From the NCBI GenBank assembly GCA_026003175.1, contig BPGT01000001.1:310001-374000 (forward strand): a stretch of DNA of 64,000 nucleotides, in the 5' to 3' direction. Origin of the DNA: Armatimonadota bacterium (GTDB taxonomy: Bacteria; Armatimonadota; HRBIN16). The position numbers and the translations under genes are program-made. The notes beneath the pieces were generated by a model. It searched no databases. It worked only from the letters and a program-made list of their open reading frames with translations, and was not told the DNA's origin. This document shows, piece after piece, positions 7,152 through 58,777 of the stretch (position 1 is its first letter; each line of letters starts with the position of its first letter).

Positions 7152-7803
7152 CGCCGGAGGACGTGGAGGGACACCTGCGGGCGTTCAACCGCTACAACCT
7201 GACCGCTATCAGTATCCACGAGGCGTATCCGGGTCATTACGTGCAGTTTCTGTGGCTAAAACACGCCCCGACGCGCCTGCGCAAGATGCTCGGTGCGTAC
7301 TCCAATGCCGAAGGCTGGGCGCACTACTGCGAGCAGTTGTTTATGGAGCTGGGCTACAAGGCGGAAGACCCGCGTTACCGCCTGGCTCAGCTGCATGAGG
7401 CGTTGCTCCGCGCCTGTCGATACGTGGCGGGATTCGGAATGCACACACGAGGCATGAGCCTCGAAGCAGCAAAGCAGCTGTTCATCGAACAGGGGCATAT
7501 GGAGCCTATCAACGCCGAGCGGGAAGCAAAACGCGGTGCGGTAGACCCCATGTACTGCAACTACACGCTGGGCAAGCTGCTTCTGCTCAAGCTGCGCGAA
7601 GACATGAAGCGCAAACAGGGTTCTGCCTTTAGCCTGCGGCGGTTTCACGACGACTACTTGAGAGCAGGCTTTCCACCCATTCCCCTGTTGCGCAAGCAGA
7701 TGCTTGGCGAGGTCGGCGAGGTTTTGTGAAGTTCTGCTGGTGAATCGGTCGTCGCCATGAGCTCCCCTGCTCAGGGGATTTCAGACAACCCCGCGTGTAG
7801 GGT

Positions 7804-7989
7804 GAGGGTGTTCGAGAATTGTTGAGAAGTTGGTTGTAGCGCAAGGAGAGAGGCGTTCTTGCTATCCCTGCCTTACCTCACCCCCGTCCCCTCTCCTACG
7901 AGGAGAGGGGCGTTCCCCCTTCCCTTGCAGGGAAGGGGGCAAGGGGGTTAGGTTATCTATCCATTCAACCAGCAATTTCGAACACCCCC
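7804..7989 (+). mobile_element. 186-bp MITE, copy A
   Basis: Starts GAGGGTGTTCGA and ends with its inverted complement (last two bases CC instead of TC). An 11-base direct repeat, GCGTGTAGGGT, flanks it (left copy ends at 7803, right copy 7990-8000). The interior holds two GC-rich hairpins, around CCCCTCTCCTACGAGGAGAG and CCCTTCCCTTGCAGGGAAGG. No credible coding frame. The right target copy ends on the first T of the tRNA-Glu -35 hexamer. The remaining bases between the DUF885 stop at 7729 and the MITE hold no feature I can support. Confidence 0.9.
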
Positions 7990-7999
7990 GCGTGTAGGG

Positions 8000-8029
8000 T
8001 TGACAAGTCGCCACAGCGTGTTGTATAAT
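8000..8029 (+). promoter_or_regulatory. Sigma-70 promoter of tRNA-Glu
   Basis: TTGACA at 8000-8005, an 18-base spacer, and a consensus TATAAT at 8024-8029. The tRNA starts 15 bases after the -10. MITE copy A with its target duplication abuts the -35, so the native upstream (UP element) region has been moved away. Confidence 0.9.
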
Positions 8030-25682: not shown

Positions 25683-25775
25683 GTGGATGCCGACGTGGTG
25701 AAATTGGTAAACACGCTAGGTTCAGGGTCTAGTGCCCGAACGGGCTTGGGGGTTCGAGTCCCCCCGTCGGCACCA
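25683..25775 (+). repeat. Left attachment-site repeat (attL)
   Basis: 93 bases, from GTGGAT just before the tRNA to its CCA end, identical to 32599-32691. Sequence similarity stops at both borders. The strand-exchange point lies somewhere within the repeat. Confidence 0.85.
25689..25775 (+). tRNA. tRNA-Leu (CAG), left copy
   Basis: 87 bases with encoded CCA. Acceptor GCCGACG/CGTCGGC, anticodon loop TTCAGGG with anticodon CAG, and the long variable arm (TGCCCGAACGGGC) of class II tRNAs. This copy retains the host promoter and is the one most likely expressed. Confidence 0.95.
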
Positions 25776-32598: not shown

Positions 32599-32691
32599 GT
32601 GGATGCCGACGTGGTGAAATTGGTAAACACGCTAGGTTCAGGGTCTAGTGCCCGAACGGGCTTGGGGGTTCGAGTCCCCCCGTCGGCACCA
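32599..32691 (+). repeat. Right attachment-site repeat (attR)
   Basis: 93 bases identical to 25683-25775. To its right the sequence continues ATTTTTATTG, a T-rich end that was probably the native terminator region of the host tRNA gene before insertion. Confidence 0.85.
32605..32691 (+). tRNA. tRNA-Leu (CAG), right copy
   Basis: Identical to the left copy over all 87 bases. The best upstream promoter match is weak (TTGTTA, 17 bases or so, CAATAT), so it may be silent or expressed only from the element. Confidence 0.95.
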
Positions 32692-40936: not shown

Positions 40937-40973
40937 CTCCCCACTTCCGCGATGAGCAATGAGCAATTTCCAT

Positions 40974-41159
40974 GAGGGTGTTCGAAATTGCTGGTTGAAT
41001 GGATAGATAACCTAACCCCCTTGCCCCCTTCCCTGCAAGGGAAGGGGGAACGCCCCTCTCCTCGCAGGAGAGGGGACGGGGGTGAGGTAAGGCAGGGATA
41101 GCAAGAACGCCTCTCTCCTTGCGCTACAACCAACTTCTCAACAATTCTCGAACACCCTC
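40974..41159 (-). mobile_element. 186-bp MITE, copy B
   Basis: Ends GAGGGTGTTCGA...TCGAACACCCTC. Ten-base target duplication CAATTTCCAT (left copy ends at 40973, right copy 41160-41169). One central base pair differs from the other copies (CCTCGCAGGAG instead of CCTCGTAGGAG). The right target copy ends on the first T of a TTGACA. Confidence 0.92.
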
Positions 41160-41168
41160 CAATTTCCA

Positions 41169-41197
41169 TTGACAACTGATAACCCATTCGGTATGAT
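41169..41197 (+). promoter_or_regulatory. Sigma-70 promoter beside MITE copy B
   Basis: TTGACA at 41169-41174, 17-base spacer, TATGAT at 41192-41197. It points toward the acetyltransferase gene, 228 bases away. Only a short frame lies between; nothing else is visible in 41198-41340. Confidence 0.7.
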
Positions 41198-48831: not shown

Positions 48832-49038
48832 GAGCCAACCGAACCTGGGCATGGAACACCCTTCTCCTGTCACAAGGCAGGAGAGGGGGAGAAGGGGAAA
48901 GGACAACGGCACAGATAATGCGTCGCCGTGCCGTGCTGGGAAGATAACCACCCGCGGTTTCTTTCCGGTCATAGCCCGCCATTTCAGGGGGTGGGGAACA
49001 AGCCACCCAAAATCCCTTACCAGTTCCGAAAAAACGCT

Positions 49039-49224
49039 GAGGGTGTTCGAGAATTGTTGAGAAGTTGGTTGTAGCGCAAGGAGAGAGGCGTTCTTGCTAT
49101 CCCTGCCTTACCTCACCCCCGTCCCCTCTCCTACGAGGAGAGGGGCGTTCCCCCTTCCCTTGCAGGGAAGGGGGCAAGGGGGTTAGGTTATCTATCCATT
49201 CAACCAGCAATTTCGAACACCCTC
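49039..49224 (+). mobile_element. 186-bp MITE, copy C
   Basis: Same ends and interior as copy A. Nine-base target duplication AAAAACGCT (left copy ends at 49038, right copy 49225-49233). The empty site survives in the second module copy (AAAAACGCTTGACAAAC at 54624-54640), which confirms the insertion borders. Confidence 0.95.
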
Positions 49225-49232
49225 AAAAACGC

Positions 49233-49262
49233 TTGACAAACATTGCACATCAGGTATATACT
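49233..49262 (+). promoter_or_regulatory. Promoter of metalloprotease copy 1
   Basis: TTGACA, 18-base spacer, TATACT. The MITE with its target duplication ends on the first T of the -35. A leader of about 40 bases leads to the GTG at 49311. Confidence 0.85.
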
Positions 49263-49310
49263 GCAAGTAAGCCTGTGGAACAGGCGATGGACGAAGGGAG
49301 GTTATTCAAG

Positions 49311-51370
49311 GTGTCTTGCAAAGCACGTTTTTCTACCCCCCCCTTATCGCCTGGGCAGTTTTAAGTCTGTGCTTGCTGTTGTCTCCCCTGCAAGCGCAAG
49401 ACCTGCACATCACCCTGCTCAACGGCGACTGCGACGGCGATAACGAAGTGACCCTCTTGGACTTCGGCATTGTGGTGAACGCTTTCGGGAGCACACCGAA
49501 TGACCCCAACTGGGACCCTCGCGCCGATTTGGGCGGTGATTGTGAAGTGACGCTGTTGGACTACGGCATTGTGGTGCGTAATTTCGGCGCGGTGGGTGCG
49601 GAGCCGTTTGACCCCGCGTTGCCTCGGCAGCCTGCACCGAGTGAGGGGTATCGATTGCACGGGATGATTCGCTTGGAAAAGTGGCAGGGTGGTGAGGTAA
49701 CCGTGCGATTAGAAGCCTACCGTGAAGATGTCCCTGAGCAAGTGGTCTATTACGCTGATTATTCGGTGAGAAGTGACGGCTTCTTCAGCTTATGCTTACC
49801 AGACTCTGGTATGTGGCGGATTGTAGCATACACCACCTCTCCACAGGTGCAACATTTCCTGACCTTAAGCATTCCACATTACCGACAATACCAGAAGGGC
49901 GACCCTATTCAGATTATCGTCTCGGAACCGCTTGGCACAGAGTTGTTCAGCGACTTCCACTCTCCTATACCCATTACTGTTCACTTCTTCGACTATGATG
50001 CGGTTTCCATTACCTCAGCGGATGGTACGGTTCGCCTGACCAACAAAGAACGAGAGAAGTCGTTGAACCTAGGCGTTATGTGGTATGTAGAAGGAGGCGG
50101 CTGGATTGATCAGCATGCACCTGGCTTTGCCGATTACTACCCTGAGCCCCTTCGCCCAGATGAGTTCAGTCGTACGGTCCGTATTGTATGCACGGCGTAT
50201 GACCGAACAAGTATCCCCTCGCGCCGAGACGATGCGATATCAGTAGAAATCACCATCACCCTAATCAAGGTGCCGACCACTCGTGCTATTGTCGGACACA
50301 CGGTATACCACTGGCATGACGGTGCTGGGGTTGAGTCGTCTTTAATCACATCTGGTTTCCACCCTGACGATTCTGTTCGGTTCGCTTGGGTGGTGGATGC
50401 ACCTGCGATGTTACCATGGTACCTGCGATACGTGGAGTGGCTGCAAGTGCCGTGGCACGGGAAGTTGTGGGGAGAACCCAGGGGCGGACTATTTGACACA
50501 TTTCCTATATCGCCAGACGAGGAGCATCGGCGTGTGGAGGTAGAAGTGAGAGCGACCTTTGCCTCTCCCTATCCAGACCCCTGGCTTGGTTTCCAAAACA
50601 CCAAGACCCGTTCACGAGCAGTCACTTTTGCACTCGGCCGCAACGACGAGTTAGAAGATTTCACGCGAGGCTATTCGGCAGCCGGTCTGTGGAACCCACC
50701 GAACTGGTTTGACAACCGACCGGGGCATTGGGGAGCGGTCGTCCCCAGATTCAACGAGATGGACGCCAACTTGGAAGATAGATACGTCGTTTATTATGCG
50801 CCTACTCCATTCATGGGTTTAGGGGATGCGGCGGCAGTGTTTGACTGGAAAGGGGAATTTGCACTGGGATCACGCCGATATCAAGAAAGCTGGCGTGGTC
50901 GCATCTACCTCTTTGGTTTGAACATACTCGCAGCCCACGAAAACGCTCCCACAGCCACCAAGAAACCAGGCTACGGTTTGATTGCTTCTGGTATCGACTG
51001 GCTGGCGACTGTGGTGACGCACGAATTAGCTCATCGTGACTTGTGGCTCGCTTCATGGGGAGGTTTCGACTCCACACATATTGGACAGCCCCCTGACTGG
51101 TATCCTTTCGATCCCGACAAGCCATATGACAAGGATGCGGATGGCATACTAGACAGTTGGGAGGAGCAGCATGGATGGCTCGGCTTAAGTCCTAATGACC
51201 GTTACTCGCTGGAACGGTGGTGGCTTTACGGTGAGAATGCTACAGGCTTGGAGTATTGCACTACTCGAGACGATGAGATGTTTGCGCAGCTATTTGGGGA
51301 GTGGAACGGTCATCTCGTCGGTAGCCTAGACAATCAGGACTGGTCAGCAGGTGGACGACAGGACTACTAA
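49311..51370 (+). CDS. Secreted dockerin-metalloprotease, copy 1 (phase-off frame)
   Basis: About 685 residues if the poly-C tract is in phase. The ribosome site GGGAGG is eight bases before GTG 49311, which reads SCKARFST and then stops, because the C8 tract at 49336 shifts the frame; one more C (or two fewer) joins it to LIAWAVLSLCLLLSPLQAQ, a signal peptide. Next come two dockerin-like calcium repeats (DGDNEVTLLDFGIVVNAFG, GGDCEVTLLDYGIVVRNFG), beta domains, and a zinc-protease motif VVTHELAHRDLWLASWGGF near residue 565, then a calcium loop DKDADGILDSWEEQ. A TTG at 49316 could give low expression in the present state. Confidence 0.8.
49336..49343 (+). repeat. Poly-C tract (C8), candidate phase switch
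   Basis: Eight Cs right after the start region. C6 or C9 would place the well-spaced GTG in frame with the signal peptide and the rest of the protein. Confidence 0.7.
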
Positions 51371-52814: not shown

Positions 52815-54215
52815 ATGAGACGCAAAGCGCTGTTCGCCATCGCTTTATGCCCGCTACTTGCATCGGTGATGATGGCGGACTTGCCTCAGCCCAAAGACCC
52901 TCTGGTGATGCCCGCTATCGCTCTACGGCAGACGCCAGCACAGTGGGTGCGTATCTACCGCGAGTCCGAGAAAGACCCCGCTACACTCTTGCGCTACCTG
53001 CACGAGCACATCCGCTTCGTCAGCACACGCCAAAGCGCTCCGGTGGTAGAACCGCTTTCTGACCCTAAAGGTATCTTTCAACTTGAGACCCGAACGTATG
53101 TGTTCAACCGGTTAGGGGACGTGGGCACACCCGACCTGATACCCGCGATAGAGCAGTTTATTCAGCGCAGAAGGGAGATGAACGACTGGGCAACGAACTC
53201 AGACGTGGCATTGGCGCAGTTGAGCATAGAGCGCATTCAGGCTCGCGCGAGGGGTCCGGAGGCTTATAAGAACAAGATGCTGGACTGGGTCAGAAACCCA
53301 ACAAGCTATGCTGACTCGGTAGATGCAAACGGAGGGCCCAACGCCATGGCAGTGAAGCGTCTCGGTTATGGTGTTCGGGCTTTAGCGGTGATAGGTGCCA
53401 GCGATACAGTGCCGCTTATCTTAGAGGCAATACAGGAAGTAGACAAAAAGATGCCCAGAATAGTCTGGCTCTTTAGTCGTCCCCGGGTCATCCACTGGCT
53501 GGCGCAGTTCGAGGACGCGAGCCTTGTGGAGGAGCTGCGGAAGAGTTTTTTCTCTTATGGCACGACGACGCCTTTCTCGACCTACCATCTGGAACCGGGG
53601 GAGAAGGACCCTATCTGGTTGTACTGGCAGATCCGCACTAGAGGAATGGATATTGCCCAAACCGTGAGAGTAATGTTAGAAGCAGCTGGAGGTGAGGGAC
53701 CTCGCAGAATGGTTAGTCGGGTCATGGGATGCCTAGATGAAGCCGCGGTCCCGCCTCTTTTGAAGTGTATAGCGGCGCCCCCCGTTTGCAGTGACCCCGA
53801 ATCTGCACAAGCGGAGGCGATCTCAGCGGTAGGGCAGATTGGCAGCAAGTCTGCCGTTACAATGTTGTGCCATGTGCTGGAGACAGGTTCGCCGCGATTG
53901 AAGATCGCAGCCGCTTGCGCACTTGGTAAAATCGGCAACCCAGTGGCTTTGCCTGACCTGCTGAAGCTGGCACAGAGCAGCGACTTTTACCTCCAGATGG
54001 CGGCGATTGATGCTCTGGGCAACATGGGGGACAGTCGTGCGGAGCCGGTGTTATTGAAACTGCTGAGCGAACACCCCAACAACAACATCCGCTACGGGGC
54101 GGCAGGGGCGCTGGCAAAGGTCGGCACCTCTGCAGCGATACCGGTGCTGGAGGGGCGGTTACAGGTGGAGTCTTCGCGGAGCGAGGGTGTTCGAAATTGC
54201 TGGTTGAATGGATAG
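52815..54215 (+). CDS. Secreted HEAT-repeat protein, C-terminus cut by MITE
   Basis: 466 residues as read. Signal peptide MRRKALFAIALCPLLASVMM; GAGGA before the ATG. Ends in HEAT repeats (KIAAACALGKIGNPVALPDL, MAAIDALGNMGDSRAEPVLL). After ESSRS the frame enters MITE copy D and stops after EGVRNCWLNG. Without the MITE and one target copy it would continue VQGRIGWALRRLRQK, like the LRQKAR and LRQRAR ends of its relatives, and run about 30 residues further. The loss is small, so the protein may still fold. Confidence 0.82.
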   Translation: MRRKALFAIALCPLLASVMMADLPQPKDPLVMPAIALRQTPAQWVRIYRESEKDPATLLRYLHEHIRFVSTRQSAPVVEPLSDPKGIFQLETRTYVFNRLGDVGTPDLIPAIEQFIQRRREMNDWATNSDVALAQLSIERIQARARGPEAYKNKMLDWVRNPTSYADSVDANGGPNAMAVKRLGYGVRALAVIGASDTVPLILEAIQEVDKKMPRIVWLFSRPRVIHWLAQFEDASLVEELRKSFFSYGTTTPFSTYHLEPGEKDPIWLYWQIRTRGMDIAQTVRVMLEAAGGEGPRRMVSRVMGCLDEAAVPPLLKCIAAPPVCSDPESAQAEAISAVGQIGSKSAVTMLCHVLETGSPRLKIAAACALGKIGNPVALPDLLKLAQSSDFYLQMAAIDALGNMGDSRAEPVLLKLLSEHPNNNIRYGAAGALAKVGTSAAIPVLEGRLQVESSRSEGVRNCWLNG

Positions 54216-54368
54216 ATAACCTAACCCCCTTGCCCCCTTCCCTGCAAGGGAAGGGGGAACGCCCCTCTCCTCGTAGGAGAGGGGACGGGGGTGAGGTAAG
54301 GCAGGGATAGCAAGAACGCCTCTCTCCTTGCGCTACAACCAACTTCTCAACAATTCTCGAACACCCTC
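54183..54368 (-). mobile_element. 186-bp MITE, copy D, inside a HEAT gene
   Basis: Nine-base target duplication TCGCGGAGC (54174-54182 and 54369-54377). The only insertion event in the window that hit a coding region. The same insertion is present in the second module (copy E), so it happened before the duplication or was copied by gene conversion. Confidence 0.92.
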
Positions 54369-54498
54369 TCGCGGAGCGTGCAGGGGCGCATCGGCTGGGC
54401 GTTGCGGAGATTACGCCAGAAAGGGAATAGCAGGGCAGTCCAGCGGGATTTTTACAGGGTAAAATGGTAGTAACGTAACGACACGCTGAGGGGAGAAC

Positions 54499-54669
54499 AT
54501 GCCTGACTTCACCGTGGTTGCCATGCCTCAAAGGAAGCGTATCGCGCTGGTGGCGCACGACCACAAGAAGGCGGACTTGCTGGAGTGGGTGCGCTTCAAT
54601 CGCGATCTGCTGGCGCGTTTACTAAAAACGCTTGACAAACATTGCACATCAGGTATATACTGCAAGTAA
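54499..54669 (+). pseudogene. mgsA, truncated duplicate
   Basis: Begins [20 protein letters not shown] and matches the intact gene at 58908 for about 118 bases, to RDLLA. It then runs into unrelated sequence and the promoter of unit 2 and stops at 54669. The active site is absent, so it is nonfunctional. It marks the junction of the tandem duplication. Confidence 0.9.
54632..54661 (+). promoter_or_regulatory. Promoter of metalloprotease copy 2
   Basis: TTGACA, 18-base spacer, TATACT, identical to the copy 1 promoter but without a MITE. It lies inside the 3' end of the truncated mgsA frame. Confidence 0.85.
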
Positions 54670-54709
54670 GCCTGTGGAACAGGCGATGGACGAAGGGAGG
54701 TTCTTCAAG

Positions 54710-56792
54710 ATGTCTTGCAAATCACGCTTTTCTACCCCCCCTTATCGCCTGGGCAGTTTTAAGTCTGTGCTTGCTGTTGTCTCCCCTGCAAGCGCAAGAC
54801 CTGCACATCACCCTGCTCAACGGCGACTGCGACGGCGATAACGAAGTGACCCTCTTGGACTTCGGCATTGTGGTGAACGCTTTCGGGAGCACACCGAATG
54901 ACCCCAACTGGGACCCTCGCGCCGATTTGGGCGGTGATTGTGAAGTGACGCTGTTGGACTACGGCATTGTGGTGCGTAATTTCGGCGCGGTGGGTGCGGA
55001 GCCGTTTGACCCCGCGTTGCCTCGGCAGCCTGCACCGAGTGAGGGGTATCAGATACGAGGGATGCTTAAACTGCAAGAATGGAGAGGGGTGCCTCTCACT
55101 GTGCGTTTGGAAGCCTGCAAGCAAAATGCCTCCCAACCAGCCGTGTACTGCAAAGAGTTCGTGGTGGACGGAGAAAGCTTGTTCACTTTGCACCTGCCGG
55201 ACTCCGGCCCGTGGGCTGTATTAGCGCAGGTTACATCAGGAAATAGCGGTTTCCTGCACTTGAAGCCGGTACATCCTCGAGGCTACAGAGAAGGCAGCCC
55301 CATACAGGTCACTGTCGTCGAGCCCCCGACGCACGAGGTGTTTAGCGTCTTTCACACACCAATAACCCTTCGCCTCAGAATCGTTGACTATGACGAGGTT
55401 TTTATCGTGTCAGCCGACGGCACTGCACGTTTTGTCAACCAAGAGCGCGAACAGTCAAAAAACTTTCGTGTTTTCTGGCACGTCGTGGAGGGCGGTGGCG
55501 AAGTAGACCCCCGCCCAGGCTCTGGCTTCATAGCAGACTACTACCCGGAAATCTTTGATGAGTTTTCGCAGCAAGTGCGCATCCAGTGCACGGTGTTCGA
55601 TTGGAGTGACGTTCCGGCTCGCCGCGATGCACCTGTGTCCGTAACCATCGACCTGACCCTGCTGAAGGTTCCGACTATCCGCACTATCGCAGGTCACTCG
55701 GTCGGCGTCGGGGGAACCACGAGTGCTTCACTGACTACCTCCGGTTTCCACCCTGACGATTCTGTTCGGTTCGCTTGGGTGGTGGATGCACCTGCGATGT
55801 TACCATGGTACCTGCGATACGTGGAGTGGCTGCAAGTGCCGTGGCACGGGAAGTTGTGGGGAGAACCCAAGGGCAGACTATTTGACACATTTCCTATATC
55901 GCCAGACGAGGAGCATCGGCGTGTGGAGGTAGAAGTGAGAGCGACCTTTGCCTCTCCCTATCCAGACCCCTGGCTTGGTTTCCAAAACACCAAGACCCGT
56001 TCACGAGCAGTCACTTTTGCACTCGGCCGCAACGACGAGGTAGAAGATTTCACGCGAGGCTATTCGGCAGCCGGTCTGTGGAACCCACCGAACTGGTTTG
56101 ACAACCGACCGGGGCATTGGGGAGCGGTCGTCCCCAGATTCAACGAGATGGACGCCAACTTGGAAGATAGATACGTCGTTTATTATGCGCCTACTCCATT
56201 CATGGGTTTAGGGGATGCGGCGGCAGTGTTTGACTGGAAAGGGGAATTTGCACTGGGATCACGCCGATATCAAGAAAGCTGGCGTGGTCGCATCTACCTC
56301 TTTGGTTTGAACATACTCGCAGCCCACGAAAACGCTCCCACAGCCACCAAGAAACCAGGCTACGGTTTGATTGCCTCTGGTATCGACTGGCTGGCGACTG
56401 TGGTGACGCATGAATTAGCTCATCGTGACTTGTGGCTCGCTTCATGGGGAGGTTTCTCGGCAGAGCACATCGAGTGGTTTGGGGAATGGCGCCCCTTTAA
56501 CAAGAGAGCAAGGTTTTGGGATCCTGACAAGCAAGAGTGGGTGTACTACGACGAGGACGGAGATGGCGTTCCTAGCGATTTCGAACGCGCACATCGTTCC
56601 CTCGGTTTTCATCATCAAGATCCCTGTGCAATAGAGCGATGGTGGTTGTACGGTAGGGAATCCCCAGGTCCGGAAGTCTGTACAACTAACGACACAGAGA
56701 TGTTTGCACAGCTGTATGGAGAATGGAATGGTTACACTATCGGCAGCCTAGATGGTCAGGACTGGTCGGAGAACGGCCGTCAGGATTATTAG
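54710..56792 (+). CDS. Secreted dockerin-metalloprotease, copy 2 (phase-off frame)
   Basis: About 690 residues if in phase. The ATG at 54710 has GGGAGG eight bases upstream; it reads MSCKSRFSTPPYRLGSFKSV and runs out of frame because the tract has C7, so it needs one C fewer or two more to reach the signal peptide LIAWAVLSLCLLLSPLQAQ. Dockerin-like repeats, a divergent beta domain (residues about 90-340), and a C-terminal half nearly identical to copy 1 with VVTHELAHRDLWLASWGGF. The last 100 residues differ (DEDGDGVPSDFERAHRSLGF), again with a calcium-loop. Its tract differs from copy 1, so the two could switch independently. Confidence 0.8.
54735..54741 (+). repeat. Poly-C tract (C7), candidate phase switch
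   Basis: Same place as in copy 1 but one base shorter. The length difference between otherwise almost identical copies shows that the tract changes. Confidence 0.7.
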
Positions 56793-58306: not shown

Positions 58307-58624
58307 GTGGTCAAGGCAGCGGTAGAGGTACTTGGCAAAATCGGCGACCCAGTGGCTTTGCCTGACCTGCTGGAGCTGGCACAGAGCAGCGACTTTTACC
58401 TCCAGATGGCGGCGATTGATGCTCTGGGCAACATGGGGGACAGTCGTGCGGAGCCGGTGTTATTGAAACTGCTGAGCGAACACCCCAACAACAACATCCG
58501 CTACGGGGCGGCAGAGGCGCTGGCAAAGGTCGGCACCTCTGCAGCGATACCGGTGCTGGAACGGCGGTTACAGGTGGAGTCTTCGCGGAGCGAGGGTGTT
58601 CGAAATTGCTGGTTGAATGGATAG
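58307..58624 (+). pseudogene. 3' fragment of a second HEAT gene, with MITE copy E
   Basis: About 95 codons nearly identical to the end of the 52815 gene (VALPDLLELAQSSDFYLQMA, MGDSRAEPVLLKLLSEHPNN), including the same MITE insertion and EGVRNCWLNG tail. The first 370 codons, signal peptide and ribosome site are missing, so the second unit lost most of this gene. Confidence 0.8.
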
Positions 58625-58777
58625 ATAACCTAACCCCCTTGCCCCCTTCCCTGCAAGGGAAGGGGGAACGCCCCTCTCCTCGTAGGAGAGGGGACGGGGG
58701 TGAGGTAAGGCAGGGATAGCAAGAACGCCTCTCTCCTTGCGCTACAACCAACTTCTCAACAATTCTCGAACACCCTC
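58592..58777 (-). mobile_element. 186-bp MITE, copy E
   Basis: Identical to copy D with the same target duplication TCGCGGAGC, as part of the duplicated block and not a separate insertion. Confidence 0.92.

Follow-up and report, generated by a model that had tools for sequence, protein, structure and literature searches.

In the genome of an Armatimonadota bacterium, a 186-bp non-autonomous element (MITE) and the insertion sequence (IS) with which it has its ends in common insert at the -35 box of promoters in a register that is fixed to the single base, and the promoter is left whole. As read from DNA sequence, this picture comprises the landing site, the anchoring of one cut, a dependence on the -10 hexamer, a marked asymmetry of the target, the stacking of copies at one spot and the conservation of the register in other species. 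The explanation that accounts best for it, and that we hold with rather better than even confidence, is that the IS transposase targets sigma-70 promoters, probably via promoter-bound RNA polymerase or sigma in combination with direct reading of (T)GAC.

All five MITE copies (A to E) described for the 64-kb window, the whole stretch of DNA that was analysed, are present, each 186 bp long and 98-100% identical to the others. Copy A (7804-7989, plus strand), with the terminal inverted repeat GAGGGTGTTCGA and a mutated right end (CACCCCC in place of CACCCTC), lies between 11-bp target duplications, GCGTGTAGGGT, at 7793-7803 and 7990-8000, the last base of the latter being the first T of the TTGACA of a tRNA-Glu promoter (8000-8029, plus strand; TTGACA at 8000-8005, 18 bp, TATAAT at 8024-8029). 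Copy B (40974-41159, minus strand) is flanked by 10-bp duplications, CAATTTCCAT, at 40964-40973 and 41160-41169 and adjoins a plus-strand promoter at 41169-41197 (TTGACA from 41169, 17 bp, TATGAT at 41192-41197), while copy C (49039-49224, plus strand), with 9-bp duplications, AAAAACGCT, at 49030-49038 and 49225-49233, adjoins another at 49233-49262 (plus strand; TTGACA from 49233, 18 bp, TATACT at 49257-49262). The initial annotation had claimed that these duplications of 11, 10 and 9 bp end on the first T of TTGACA, with a -10 hexamer 17-18 bp beyond, and this is borne out at all three sites; the occurrence of the element in both orientations, which it also described, is found in the window and genome-wide (40 vs 26 relative to the promoter). 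Its further statement, that the element leaves the promoter core intact and removes native upstream sequence, stands in its first half only: all DNA upstream of about -44 is displaced, nothing is lost, and the 9-bp duplication and promoter core are kept.

Copy D (54183-54368, minus strand), between duplications TCGCGGAGC at 54174-54182 and 54369-54377, sits within coding-like duplicated DNA and the hexamer in its promoter register is AAGACT (54169-54174, minus strand), with no -10. Copy E (58592-58777, minus strand) is the identical insertion copied along by the duplication, so that D and E are a single event with a GAC core in register, as had been proposed. A paralogue of the copy-C promoter, at 54632-54661, carries no element. 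The intervals 49225-50647 and 54624-56036, the first of which takes in the copy-C promoter, lie ~5.4 kb apart and are 97-100% identical across several hundred bases; the window also holds two identical tRNA-Leu (CAG) genes (25689-25775 and 32605-32691), whose flanks are identical too.

The source genome (4.1 Mb, 7 contigs) contains ~105 MITE cores, the 12-bp ends being perfect in 92, and the flanks of 101 MITEs and nine IS copies were examined, representing 97 separate insertions (12 being tandem arrays). At 76 of the 97, the duplication ends on the first T of a TTGAC (51 TTGACA, 22 TTGACT, 3 TTGACC), and three further insertions have NTGAC in register. A perfect target duplication of 9-12 bp is seen for 77 insertions, with TTGAC in register at 63 (82%); from base composition, a given 5-mer is estimated to fall in this place by chance, on one side or the other, in ~0.2% of cases. 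The earlier claim that the single-base register exceeds chance, for which this genome-wide set had been named beforehand as the refuting test, is thus upheld, and exact -35 targeting is confirmed across the bacterium's own genome and, as described below, in other species. Within the TTGAC-register set the duplication measures 9 bp (47 insertions), 10 bp (11), 11 bp (4) or 12 bp (1) and the promoter-side edge is constant, which marks the promoter-proximal cut as the anchored one. The genome has ~290 sites of the form TTGAC[A/T]-N16-18-TANNNT, as against 41 for the reversed pattern, and about 21% of the ~290 are occupied; about a fifth of its recognisable TTGAC-type promoters, in other words, carry a copy immediately upstream, with the promoter whole. 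Copies lacking target duplications were considered as products of a separate mechanism, which was rejected, as at least one pair (C1:810322 and C3:231039) carries one another's target duplications, as two copies would after a reciprocal exchange by inversion or translocation, and others are composite units moved together.

The role of the -10 hexamer was assessed against a control that covered 864 kb of this genome (40 stretches away from known copies, plus the window), with genes called by a codon-usage model; control sites were TTGAC[A/T] sequences not adjoining an element, and a strict -10 was defined as TANNNT at spacers of 16-18. Site A, on account of its mutated right end, was scored as free in this control, a bias that runs against the effect. 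A strict -10 is found at 60 of 73 occupied sites, compared with 48 of 115 free intergenic ones (odds ratio 6.4, Fisher P=3e-8), and the enrichment at occupied sites is confined to spacers 17 and 18. The effect is graded, amounting to a ~5-8-fold difference in site use, and by extrapolation from the control ~3-4% of intergenic TTGAC[A/T] sites without such a -10 are occupied. Four insertions at TTG-type hexamers that lack GAC (TTGCCT twice, TTGTGT, TTGCGA) all have in-register -10s with 5-6 of 6 matches; among intergenic TTG sites, only 2.6% have as good a -10. No -10 accompanies five other insertions, a number in which one event figures twice via the duplication; these have nGACT in register (AAGACT, AGGACT, CAGACT, TGGACT) and sit in apparently coding DNA, so that the complex reads GAC in the absence of a promoter as well, a point against promoter guidance. 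These two groups of exceptions, taken together, point to contributions from both GAC and promoter context.

A target logo was built from 49 aligned sites with 9-bp duplications, TGAC being a selection criterion and the -10 not. It is one-sided, with TTGAC and the -10 prominent on one flank and no consensus signal among the 49 sites on the far flank of the duplication. A transposase dimer that read the two half-sites symmetrically would be expected to yield a palindromic target, and the symmetric candidate TGTCA-N9-TGACA was rejected on the strength of this signal-free far side.

The main rival to promoter targeting is that the transposase alone reads (T)TGAC[A/T] by its cut, the link to promoters following from the large share of promoters among intergenic TTGACs and from the loss of genic insertions. 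We would give this combination of pure sequence reading with a selection filter about one chance in four. The near invariance of TTGAC is what it predicts, as is the retention of GAC[T] in register by the exceptions in coding-like DNA, and the scarcity of -10s at free coding TTGAC[A/T] sites (6 of 229) also speaks for it; the filter leaves poorly explained, however, why -10-bearing sites should be so strongly over-used among intergenic TTGAC[A/T] sites alone, and why all four non-TTGAC sites should have their strong -10s at 17 bp. The one-sided logo, too, is unlike the palindromic targets of IS10 and IS903, which are comparable DDE elements. The -10 enrichment, the non-TTGAC sites and the asymmetry of the logo all weigh towards promoter context and away from a sequence preference alone.

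Survivorship, in which insertion is looser and copies just upstream of the -35 box persist as neutral or helpful while others are purged, we regard as improbable. Such persistence might be imagined from the intact promoter and from the long hairpins into which the MITE folds, as a hairpin-rich element could shield the promoter from transcription that enters from upstream, but the single-base register and fixed duplication edge are beyond the reach of selection, orientation to the promoter is not strict, and neutral sites available in most of the intergenic space are left unused. The copies are, moreover, near-identical (50 of 90 full-length MITEs match the consensus exactly, mean identity 99.4%), so that the burst is recent and selection has had little time. 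Least probable of all, and very unlikely in our view, is a preference for DNA shape or melting by which promoters attract the element as AT-rich, negatively supercoiled DNA. Occupied sites are indeed richer in AT around the -10 (62% vs 56% at free sites), yet with the -10 hexamer at 17-18 bp already in the model AT content has no further explanatory value (LR P=0.37), and the odds ratio for the -10 is still 5.8 after AT correction; AT content was rejected as the cause of targeting on this ground.

Nine copies of the IS are present, with the 12-bp end common to the MITE; they measure 1012 bp, or 989 bp where a frameshifting 23-bp deletion has shortened the transposase gene, and four of the nine, those without the deletion, are uninterrupted. 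No other DDE_Tnp_1 genes turned up in the genome, and the IS copies likewise insert at -35 boxes, often in tandem with the MITE. The 186-bp element has no transposase, is bounded by terminal inverted repeats and 9-12-bp duplications, exists in many near-identical copies and has in the IS an autonomous partner with matching ends; on these sequence features it is a non-autonomous relative (MITE) of the 1012-bp IS, whose transposase very probably mobilises it, to judge from common ends, common targets and joint arrays. The transposase passed the Pfam profile PF01609 (DDE_Tnp_1; 30.4 bits, cut-off 23), which was its sole Pfam match at E up to 1, with no match to the Mutator-type profile (Transposase_mut), and scored far below cut-off for the named IS5 and IS4 groups of NCBIfam (NF033579, 38.5 of 140 bits; NF033592, 17.6 of 115), which places the IS in the DDE_Tnp_1 superfamily, outside the named groups and apart from Mutator-type elements. 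An AlphaFold2 model of the transposase (pLDDT 43) was too poor for fold searches or contact-surface analysis, and a profile search of solved structures gave nothing relevant.

At C2:1115368 a tandem of MITE and IS shares an 11-bp duplication that is present three times in identical form, an arrangement that requires two successive insertions at one site. The arrays MITE-CGTGTCCGT-MITE and IS-AGAGCTCGA-MITE reappear at new sites within differing outer duplications, from which one concludes that arrays have also moved as units. The 23-bp deletion is common to five of the nine IS copies (L094, L095, L098, L101 and L102), which lie at separate promoters, and the broken form therefore probably moves by the transposase of an intact copy. 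In two loci (L096:1303-2424, minus strand, and L110) the transposase frame stays open to the end of the IS and continues into flanking DNA, so that the C-terminus varies between copies. Some copies read into the TGA of TTGAC, and a role for it as the transposase stop was rejected as coincidental, since orientation and duplication length vary.

In the mechanism that we favour, the transposase makes a staggered cut that falls, on the promoter side, just after the first T of the -35 box (T^TGACA) and, on the other side, 9 bp, sometimes 10-12, further upstream. Insertion thereby duplicates about -43 to -35 and restores the complete -35/-10 core, and with the target regenerated in this way later elements can land there again and build up arrays. 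Site choice would depend on two things: the strand-transfer complex would read (T)GAC[A/T] directly, and a sigma-70 promoter with RNA polymerase bound to it would recruit the transposase. The duplication is centred near -39, a position at which class II activators contact sigma region 4, and the transposase would sit at about their position, beside sigma region 4. It counts against this picture that one strand is cut inside the hexamer under sigma region 4, so that RNA polymerase may need to be gone or shifted by the time of strand transfer. The initial annotation had suggested guidance by the transposase or by sigma, and this is still a matter of what we infer; recruitment by sigma-70 RNA polymerase, and with it the part and identity of the guiding host protein, would be read from the promoter dependence just described. 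We put at about even the bolder proposal that a DDE_Tnp_1 (IS5/IS4-like) transposase, unrelated to Mutator-type elements, independently evolved the use of promoter-bound sigma-70 RNA polymerase as target selector, docking like a class II activator beside sigma region 4 and cutting in the -35 box, with promoters serving as reusable, self-regenerating landing sites.

Of 291 genomes of the phylum, 17, which belong to two families, contain the element family, the named matches being Fimbriimonadales, Armatimonadota, where the window itself probably belongs too; the transposases of the relatives are 57-78% identical. Among 53 element ends examined in other genomes, TTGAC lies within 36 bp at 24, at a distance of 8 bp in 21 and of 9, 10 and 2 bp once each, i.e., at 8-10 bp in 23 of 24 cases. 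Two non-TTGAC ends also have a promoter in register (TTGATT with TAGAAT at L112, TTGATT with TATACT at L128). The tRNA-Glu promoter is element-free in six relatives, with differing upstream DNA, indicating that the promoter is native and the element arrived later. In another Fimbriimonadales genome (L134:1294-1471), a 157-bp MITE with matching ends stands in tandem with an IS, with CCCACCCCCT between them.

That transposition can be directed to promoters is already known from Mutator-type elements. TnGBS and ISLre2 (p-MULT 3) and the ISKra4 group (p-MULT 4), all of the Mutator superfamily, land at sigma-A promoters, 15-17 bp upstream of the -35, and contact between the transposase and the RNA polymerase initiation complex was proposed by these workers, who also found that p-MULT elements with near-perfect inverted repeats insert in either orientation (Guerillot et al., 2014; PMC3942029). 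The present element resembles them in its fixed-distance insertion upstream of sigma-A/70 promoters and differs in that it ends 8 bp from the -35 hexamer with its duplication entering the hexamer, in its DDE_Tnp_1 transposase and in the predominance of a non-autonomous MITE. With IS5/IS4-type elements (DDE_Tnp_1, PF01609) the IS has in common a size near 1 kb, a single DDE transposase and short inverted repeats, and 9-bp duplications occur in some groups of that type (e.g., IS903), but its NCBIfam scores fall under the cut-offs of the named groups. The literature searched, mostly outside subscription journals, yielded no promoter-targeting IS5 or IS4 element and no earlier report of this targeting in this lineage. 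A fixed distance from a mark, there a site bound by a host protein, is also seen in IS1202-family elements, which are reported to insert at dif, 5 bp away from the XerC-binding sites, though the mark is dif/pdif and a single orientation is used (PMC10132070). Yeast Ty3 integrates at promoter start sites via initiation-factor contact (cited in PMC3942029); unlike the element here, it is a eukaryotic retroelement that uses RNA polymerase III factors.

What is new here is the different transposase superfamily, the register that enters the -35 box, the MITE as dominant cargo and the stacking at a regenerated target. Most insertion sequences have loose or palindromic target preferences, and this element reads a functional landmark to the single base and keeps that landmark working. 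It would join the Mutator-type elements as a second, independent bacterial case of promoter-guided transposition, one documented by about a hundred natural insertions, and would let one test how the transcription machinery can serve a transposase as a safe harbour; its insertions also tag about a fifth of the recognisable TTGAC-type promoters of a bacterium from a poorly studied phylum.

Two further repeats deserve mention. MITE positions 73-152 (window about 7873-7954) resemble a hairpin repeat that occurs by the dozen in members of the genus in which the MITE ends are absent, and the MITE seems to have captured such a dispersed repeat. A different repeat end (...CAATCTCCTGGCGCGTTTACT) stops ~8 bp before the -35 box at several sites (window 54612-54623; L063:838-849; L143:702-713; and L007, L019, L045 and L074), as if a second, older element family had the identical landing register.
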